Position numbers and translations under genes: made by a program. Positions 49,069 through 56,360 of a stretch of DNA of 64,000 nt are shown in pieces. Below the pieces are notes generated by a model. It searched no databases and had not been told where the DNA came from. It saw nothing but the letters and a program-made list of their open reading frames with translations. Source of the stretch: a bacterium (GTDB lineage: Bacteria > Myxococcota_A > UBA9160 > UBA4427). Position 1 is the first letter of the stretch. Each line of letters opens with the position of its first letter. Location of the stretch: NCBI GenBank assembly GCA_024742285.1, contig JANSYR010000004.1:124001-188000 (forward strand), in the 5' to 3' direction.

Positions 49069-50331
49069 ATGCGGCTGCTTCTCGTCGGCGCCTTCCCCTA
49101 CCCGCATCACCAGGGCTCCCAGGTCTACTTCCAGGAGCAGGCGATCGCGCTCCGCGCCGCGGGGGCGGAGGTCGAGCTGCTGACCTACGGGCGACGCGAC
49201 GACGCGCCCCCGGAAGACCCGGAACGCTGGCGCGCGCTCGACGGCTTCGTCCACCACACGATTCCCCGGAGCGCCCGCCCTCGGTCTTCGGCTTCGGGGC
49301 CTTCGTTCGCGAAGCCTCGCGCCGACCAGGCCCTGCGCCGCGCCCTGCATGACGCGATTGCGTCAAGAATCGAATCCGACGCGTCATTCGATGCGTTGTT
49401 GACGCACAATGTCGAAGCCTGCGTCATTTCCCTGTCGGCGCGCGTCATGCGTTCGCAACCGCCGCCTCCGATCCTCTACTGCGTTCACACCCTCCTGCGT
49501 CACGAGCTGTCCGCGTACATCAAGCTCATTAAAAACAGGGACTTGAGCGGCTCCGAGACCCGCGTCATGAATTGGACGCGAAGCGTCAAGAACCTCGTCG
49601 ACGGCGTCGGCTCGAGCCTCGATCGCTTTCTGGCCAGGCGGGCTGACGGATGGATCGCATTGACGCAATCCGCGTCACGCGTCATGCGACAGTACAGCGA
49701 CCGCCCAGGCGCGATCATCGCGCCGCCCCTGCCGGACCCCCGACATCGCTTCTTCGACCACGATCCGGCGCCTTCGTCGCCCAGCGGGCCTTTCTTCCTG
49801 TACTCCGGCAACCTCGATCCGTACCAGGAGCTCCCACTGCTCGAGGGCGCCGCACGCCGTCTCGCGAGTCGTGGAGGACCCGTTCCCCGGATCGTCGTCG
49901 CGAGCTTCGACTCGAGCGTCGACGCACCGGGACGATCCTGGGCGCCCGGGATCGAGCCCCGCCACGTGACGAGCGAGGCCGAGATGCAGGCGCTGACGGC
50001 CGCCGCTCGCGCGACGCTCGTGCCTCGGCGCGCGGTCGGCGGGTTCCCGATCAAGCTGGCCAACAGCCTCGCGAACGGCACACCGGCCATCACCTTCCAC
50101 GACCGCGAATGGGGCCTCGAGGACGGTCGGAACGTCCGCGTCGCGGACCGGGCGCGTCCGGTCGACGGACTCGCGGAGGCGATCGCCCGGCTCGCGGACG
50201 ACCCGGAGCAGGCACGCGAAATGGGGGTCAATGCCCGCGCTCGCTACGAGGCCGCGCACCTCCCGGCGGTCACGGCGGATCAGACCCTGGGCCTGATCGA
50301 AGAGGTCCGGATCGCGGCTCGGCGACCCTGA
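49069..50331 (+). CDS. GT4-like glycosyltransferase
   Basis: A 420-residue GT-B-type glycosyltransferase. The N-terminus is LLVGAFPYPHHQGSQVYFQE. The middle holds LTHNVEAC and ILYCVHTLLRHELSAY. The C-terminal nucleotide-sugar half has YSGNLDPYQELPLL and LVPRRAVGGFPIKLANSLAN. It is in one unit with the GT2 and phosphatase-superfamily genes (14-bp gap), probably for a surface glycan. Bases 49350-49684 are more AT-rich than the rest and contain a remarkable GCGTCA array overlaid on the coding sequence. Confidence 0.83.
   Translation: MRLLLVGAFPYPHHQGSQVYFQEQAIALRAAGAEVELLTYGRRDDAPPEDPERWRALDGFVHHTIPRSARPRSSASGPSFAKPRADQALRRALHDAIASRIESDASFDALLTHNVEACVISLSARVMRSQPPPPILYCVHTLLRHELSAYIKLIKNRDLSGSETRVMNWTRSVKNLVDGVGSSLDRFLARRADGWIALTQSASRVMRQYSDRPGAIIAPPLPDPRHRFFDHDPAPSSPSGPFFLYSGNLDPYQELPLLEGAARRLASRGGPVPRIVVASFDSSVDAPGRSWAPGIEPRHVTSEAEMQALTAAARATLVPRRAVGGFPIKLANSLANGTPAITFHDREWGLEDGRNVRVADRARPVDGLAEAIARLADDPEQAREMGVNARARYEAAHLPAVTADQTLGLIEEVRIAARRP
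49350..49684. repeat. Dense GCGTCA/TGACGC array inside a glycosyltransferase gene
   Basis: Twelve copies of the hexamer GCGTCA occur in 335 bp. Nine are direct (49360, 49381, 49421, 49442, 49497, 49562, 49583, 49672, 49679) and three inverted (49350, 49400, 49661). I found none in the rest of this gene. They fall in all three codon phases and both orientations, so they do not reflect a peptide repeat or codon choice. Three neighbouring spacings are exactly 21 bp, two helical turns. A binding-site array is the simplest reading. Confidence 0.7.
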
Positions 50332-55762: not shown

Positions 55763-56347
55763 CTATCGAAGGCGCGCTCCGAGCGCGGGGTGGAGGCGAA
55801 CGAGGGTGTCGACCACACCGTCCCGCCCGGCGCGGGACGGATCGTCGAGCCACCAGAGGATCGTGCCGACCTCCATCGCGAGATAGGCGCGCGCCGCGAG
55901 GTCCGGATCGAGGGCCGGGTCGACGCGACCTGCGGCCTGGAGGCGGCGGAGCCCGTCTGCGGTCGGCCGGGTCGACTCGGACACGACCGGCCCATGGGCC
56001 GTGGCTCCAGCACGCTCGCGGCCGAAGGTCACGCGATACGCCTGGGCATGCGACTCGGCGAAGGCGACGGCGGCCCCCGCCGATGCCCGCACCTGGGCTT
56101 CCGGATCGGTCCCGGCGCCGCGCGTCGCCTCGACCCGCGCGGCGCGCAGCGCGCCGACCGTCCGGTTCTGGATCTCCCGGAGGAGGGCGTGCTTGTCAGG
56201 GAAGTGGTTGTAGAAGGTGCCGACCGCCAGCTGGGCGCGTTTTGCGATCGCGTTCGTATTGACCCGCTCGGTCCCACGCCGGGCGAAGAGATTCAGCCCT
56301 GCGGCGAGCAGGCGGTCTTCGGCGTCTTCGATGCGGGGTCTCGGCAT
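55763..56347 (-). CDS. TetR family transcriptional regulator
   Basis: A 194-residue TetR-type regulator. The helix-turn-helix covers residues about 10-55 (LLAAGLNLFARRGTERVNTN, then AIAKRAQLAVGTFYNHFPDK). The helical C-terminal ligand domain includes AYLAMEVGTILWWLDDPSRA. It is divergent from the cytidylyltransferase operon, and the 312-bp gap holds three similar TGA-N4/8-TCA sites that are probably its operators. The ligand is unknown. Confidence 0.88.
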   Translation of the reverse strand: MPRPRIEDAEDRLLAAGLNLFARRGTERVNTNAIAKRAQLAVGTFYNHFPDKHALLREIQNRTVGALRAARVEATRGAGTDPEAQVRASAGAAVAFAESHAQAYRVTFGRERAGATAHGPVVSESTRPTADGLRRLQAAGRVDPALDPDLAARAYLAMEVGTILWWLDDPSRAGRDGVVDTLVRLHPALGARLR

Positions 56348-56360
56348 GCCTGAATCCTAA

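Follow-up and report, generated by a model that had tools for sequence, protein, structure and literature searches.

A selected hexamer array near the replication origin of a Myxococcota_A bacterium: a candidate DnaA-box cluster in an order with altered DnaA base contacts

We report that a glycosyltransferase gene near the replication origin of a bacterium of the Myxococcota_A carries a dense array of the hexamer GCGTCA, in which selection acts on the DNA sites rather than on the protein. We lean, by a modest balance of the evidence, towards reading the array as an oriC-proximal cluster of DnaA boxes resembling datA or the DnaA-box clusters (DBCs) of Bacillus subtilis, in which a re-coded box, WTGACGCR, would be bound by DnaA and would titrate or reset it. 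The window, that is, the whole 64,000-nucleotide stretch that was analyzed, spans positions 124001–188000 of a 440-kb contig (C4) of a 6.5-Mb draft genome (G000).

The first-pass annotation, made from the window sequence alone, had reported 12 copies of the hexamer within 335 bp, placed in all three codon phases, with three 21-bp spacings and in a stretch richer in AT than its surroundings. Recounting bore this out (Table 1): the rest of the open reading frame contains no further GCGTCA or TGACGC, all three phases are occupied, three same-strand neighbors are spaced by 21 bp, and the array stretch has a GC content of 59.7% versus 69.0% in the gene. No other hexamer of the window clusters as densely over 335 bp as GCGTCA. 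Overall, it shows no enrichment there, since the window total of 48 copies, 36 of them in the remaining 63.7 kb, lies below the shuffled mean of 62. When synonymous codons were shuffled with the protein and the codon usage kept, a mean of 4.4 sites and a maximum of 10 were obtained in 3000 trials, and 12 was never reached; permutation with the array's own codons only gave a mean of 3.9 and a maximum of 9 in 5000 trials. The array is the only cluster on the 440-kb contig. Genome-wide, a triple-site pattern matched the array alone in 6.5 Mb, and pairs elsewhere were isolated.

Table 1 Features of the array and its host gene (window coordinates)
Feature	Position	Strand	Evidence
Putative DnaA-box cluster: 12 YGCGTCAW-type sites (9 GCGTCA, 3 TGACGC)	49350..49684	.	
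Inverted pair TGACGC-gatt-GCGTCA	49350..49365	.	sequence
TTGACGCA box, at a place common to several genus orthologues	49399..49406	-	codon alignment
TTGACGCA ... GCGTCAT pair, with an 18-bp spacing of the outer sites	49660..49685	.	codon alignment; in 9/9 genus genomes
Host gene, GT4-family glycosyltransferase, 420 aa, frame intact	49069..50331	+	Pfam, orthologues

Orthologues in all eight other same-genus genomes examined carry 8–12 sites each, on both strands and in all phases; unlike the loci described below from elsewhere in the order, they were not picked by site pattern. Among the nine genus genomes some site positions persist and others change. The window's genome has an extra site at 49672 inside the otherwise shared terminal pair, and in G008 five sites lie inside an insertion that is absent from the other eight. 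Between G000 and G007, 10 of the 12 sites are common, whereas other hexamers of the region are identical in only 4 of 213 cases. Per-gene codon permutation never reached the observed site count in any of the nine genomes. Since all eight orthologues hold 8–12 copies in all phases and the sites turn over, we conclude that the DNA, and not the protein, is under selection. An orthologue alignment of the kind that the first-pass annotation had called for thus shows hexamers kept beyond protein needs within the genus; the two outcomes it had named as adverse, a common genome-wide rate and hexamer-free orthologues, were both looked for and neither was found there.

These data also bear on the proposal of a DNA uptake or transfer signal, for which the motif is suitably short and repeated. 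GCGTCA does not show the hundreds of dispersed copies above expectation by which uptake sequences are recognized: the array is not dispersed but unique in the genome, its site count was never reached in codon permutations, and it is conserved across the genus. This lack of genome-wide dispersal contradicts an uptake signal, and a transfer signal finds no support. Uptake, transfer or chance as the origin of the array is scarcely credible.

Outside the genus, homologues of the host gene contain no array, and in many of these genomes an array lies elsewhere near the origin. Pattern searches across the order, UBA9160 of the Myxococcota, located GCGTCA clusters at the bioD–MXAN_5187_C junction, in nagA, near rho–prfA–prmC and near rpmH, while some genomes of the order gave no array with the patterns used; because the non-genus loci were chosen by pattern, site counts at them are ascertained. 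Pooling 295 sites from 32 arrays yielded the motif YGCGTCAW (reverse complement WTGACGCR), of which GCGTTA is the sole clearly enriched near-variant. Flanking bases are preferred, and same-strand neighbor spacings peak near 11–13 and 21 bp, or about one and two helical turns. Together with the protein-independent selection on the hexamers, these features lend good support to the earlier suggestion of a protein-binding array. At the bioD locus the array is flanked in many families by a gene for an MXAN_5187 C-terminal domain (NF041621; L085, L087, L094 and a set of 18 loci). We rejected this gene as the trans-acting factor, since it neighbors no array other than that of the bioD locus and no DNA-binding domain was found in it.

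The first-pass annotation had listed functions for such a protein in general terms only (nucleoid, segregation or repression). The location of the array points to origin control or segregation, and the idea of a local operator is left without support. A cluster of operators for a transcription regulator of the host or a neighboring gene could appeal to promoter palindromes made of the same half-sites in other families. The array, however, lies within coding sequence, and the arrays of other families are at unrelated genes (bioD, nagA, the rho region) yet near the origin, so that we regard operators as improbable. In other Myxococcota families (L115, L117–L122, L134, L138 and L104), TGACGC/GCGTCA pairs or palindromes, in many cases tandem TGACGCnnnGCGTCA copies at 24 bp, adjoin genes for coiled-coil, phasin-like proteins without a Pfam family. 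DnaA scores are normal in the Myxococcota that have TGACGCnnnGCGTCA palindromes upstream of coiled-coil genes, and these palindromes could point to another protein.

The contig of the window has the gene order gyrA, gyrB, dnaN, rpmH, rnpA, yidC, jag, parA, parB, atp, and the array lies on the origin side of the chromosome, as it does similarly elsewhere, with G016 as an exception. Within the genus, rpmH and the array share a contig and are separated by 27.4 kb (G000), 30 kb (G003), 26.7 kb (G005) and 27.7 kb (G006). In most other families the distance is 13–18 kb, on the atp side, with outliers at 0.9 kb (G015), 33.5 kb (G048) and 119 kb (G016). ParB, bactofilin and the atp operon are among the neighbors common across loci. 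In three genomes the dnaA gene does not adjoin rpmH and is found ~80–120 kb from it (G000 C4 at ~77–79 kb, G005 C98 at 197 kb, G003 C9 at 196 kb); a gene at C4:199057–200634, considered as dnaA, is dnaN. A TetR-family gene at window positions 55766–56356, beside mfd and 6 kb from the array, is kept in the genus, and no strong site was found near it.

The array is not parS. The latter is a 16-bp palindrome, TGTTYCACGTGRAACA, whereas the sites of the array are hexamers that show no fixed pairing, and a canonical parS separate from the array is present in 46 of 80 genomes of the order, often 10–30 kb off on the same contig. Exact GTTNCACGTGNAAC is absent from the G000 genome; four degenerate, asymmetric parS-like GTTCCACGGGGAAC sites precede parA at C4:204552–204699, outside the window. 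A GCGTCA pair with a 20-bp spacing recurs near parS (L214, L215, L230, L231, L235, L239 and G005 C98:290019–290044); in G005 it lies within an rsmG-like gene.

Might the array be the replication origin itself? No other box cluster was found in the origin region, and the array has sites in mixed orientations and is AT-richer than its surroundings. The strand-corrected GC3 skew, however, switches at 186–202 kb in G000, where the array (173 kb) fits worse by 5.7 lnL, and at 278–282 kb in G005, where the array (259 kb) fits worse by 26 lnL; G030, where the contig is a scaffold interrupted by N stretches, was left out of this test. Moreover, the atp genes, which lie between rpmH and the bioD-side array of other families, look leading-strand there, and they look the same in the genus, whose array is on the other side. 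The dnaN–rpmH gap, for its part, holds a conserved AT-rich DNA unwinding element (DUE), DnaA-trios and tandem box-like elements, an architecture that matches the one described in PMC8287927. On the basis of the GC3 skew and of the conserved unwinding element with DnaA-trios, we conclude that oriC is at dnaN–rpmH and that the array is separate from it; that the array is the origin is highly improbable.

The oriC boxes of the order bear on the DnaA reading in both directions. They run as TTGTCCG, TTATCCG/A and TTGACGA; box 6 is TTTTGACGA in G022, and box 7, directly before the trios, is TTGACGCC in G013 and G017, which belong to two genera, this last match having been noticed after the fact and in two genomes. 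Because the boxes extend from TTGTCCG through TTATCCG/A and TTGACGA to TTGACGCC, TTGACGC falls within their range. In the window's own genus, however, the oriC boxes are TTGTCCG and CTGTCAC, not TTGACGC. We count this against the DnaA reading, along with the absence of a cluster from the dnaA promoter region of G000 and G005, the occurrence of TGACGCnnnGCGTCA palindromes in Myxococcota with normal-scoring DnaA, and the genomes of the order that gave no array with our patterns.

Escherichia coli DnaA contacts bases through R399, P423, D433, H434, T435 and H439 (PMC7561715). Alignment of domain IV of the G000 protein to E. coli 1J1V showed that R399, D433 and H434 are kept and that P423, T435 and H439 are replaced by T, P and N, respectively (numbering from the 1J1V alignment). 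Across the order, 24 of 30 sequences have proline in place of T435, the H439 position is mostly N, and the Bac_DnaA_C score is among the lower ones of the phylum. Judged by these alignments, the DnaA of the order lacks up to three of the six base-contact residues (P423, T435, H439). The sequence TTATCCACA does not occur in the 440-kb contig around the origin. Direct pairs of it number zero in 91 of 91 genomes of the class, and the pair search does not discriminate within the class because the count is zero in all 91. A single DnaA of the 30 has a fully canonical recognition helix (G018:C185; L280, L349); it is encoded on a 3-kb contig and may represent contamination or replacement. We discarded G018 as a control combining canonical DnaA with no pattern array, since its dnaA contig could be a contaminant and pattern matches are likewise absent from many other genomes.

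Known systems offer partial parallels. The DBCs of B. subtilis, like the array, are clusters outside oriC yet near it, and deletion of all six oriC-proximal clusters causes early initiation (PMC5295017); they use the canonical TTATCCACA-type box, whereas the array has WTGACGCR, to which DnaA binding is putative. E. coli datA acts partly via gene dosage soon after initiation (PMC5742627) and shares with the array a compact form and a place on the origin side of the chromosome, but it is non-coding, combines canonical boxes with an IHF site and is ~470 kb from oriC, while the array is inside a gene, 27 kb from rpmH. According to the excerpted account in PMC10316083, Thermotoga maritima DnaA reads a divergent box, ACCTACCAC, adjoining TAG repeats. 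Our alignment places His-Pro in its recognition helix, as in the DnaA of the order; its box sequence differs, and that excerpt describes no distal cluster.

The main and serious rival, which we nevertheless hold to be less likely, is that a different origin-domain DNA-binding protein, with a role in segregation, polar anchoring or nucleoid organization, uses the array as a centromere-like element beside ParB–parS, comparable to the ram sites of RacA. The ram consensus of B. subtilis RacA is TGACGCCGGCGTCA, and half of it is TGACGC. RacA sites, like the array, are origin-proximal protein-binding sites and are dense near the origin (PMC6593407); the 14-mer TGACGCCGGCGTCA was also used as ParA substrate DNA in one paper that does not name RacA. 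In favor of such a protein are the origin-proximal position of the array, the several small clusters near parS, including the recurrent 20-bp-spaced pair beside it, and the half-site in promoters elsewhere in the phylum. Yet ram sites are GC-rich 14-bp inverted repeats spread along the chromosome, whereas the array is one dense cluster of single half-sites in mixed orientation and with many spacings, not of 14-bp palindromes. Another protein would also leave unexplained the changed DnaA contacts and the TTGACGCC box beside the DnaA-trios.

A DnaA-box cluster, our preferred reading, suggests the following mechanism. The DnaA of the order keeps R399, which reads the 5′ TT, together with D433 and H434, and replacement of P423, T435 and H439 would have shifted the 3′ half of the box. 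Such a DnaA would bind the many good-match boxes cooperatively, 27 kb from oriC. Copied early after oriC fires, the cluster would double in dosage and either draw DnaA off oriC or reset its nucleotide state, so that re-initiation would not occur; datA has this effect in E. coli, and the DBCs of B. subtilis appear to have it. Because the boxes are short and tolerated by coding sequence, the cluster could be housed within a gene and could arise again at other loci close to the origin.

We tentatively extend this to the order as a whole, an extension that we judge somewhat short of probable: the initiator may have been re-specified, with up to three of six DnaA contacts lost and the box drifted to WTGACGCR, and a locus for initiation control may have wandered between genes of the origin area, its boxes rebuilt in codons by selection. 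A regulatory array that runs across coding sequence, in host genes that differ by family, would be missed by annotation pipelines and by motif searches for the canonical box. Few protein–DNA pairs of bacteria are as conserved as DnaA and its box; both have apparently changed here, which would make this order a natural experiment in the rewriting of an essential code.
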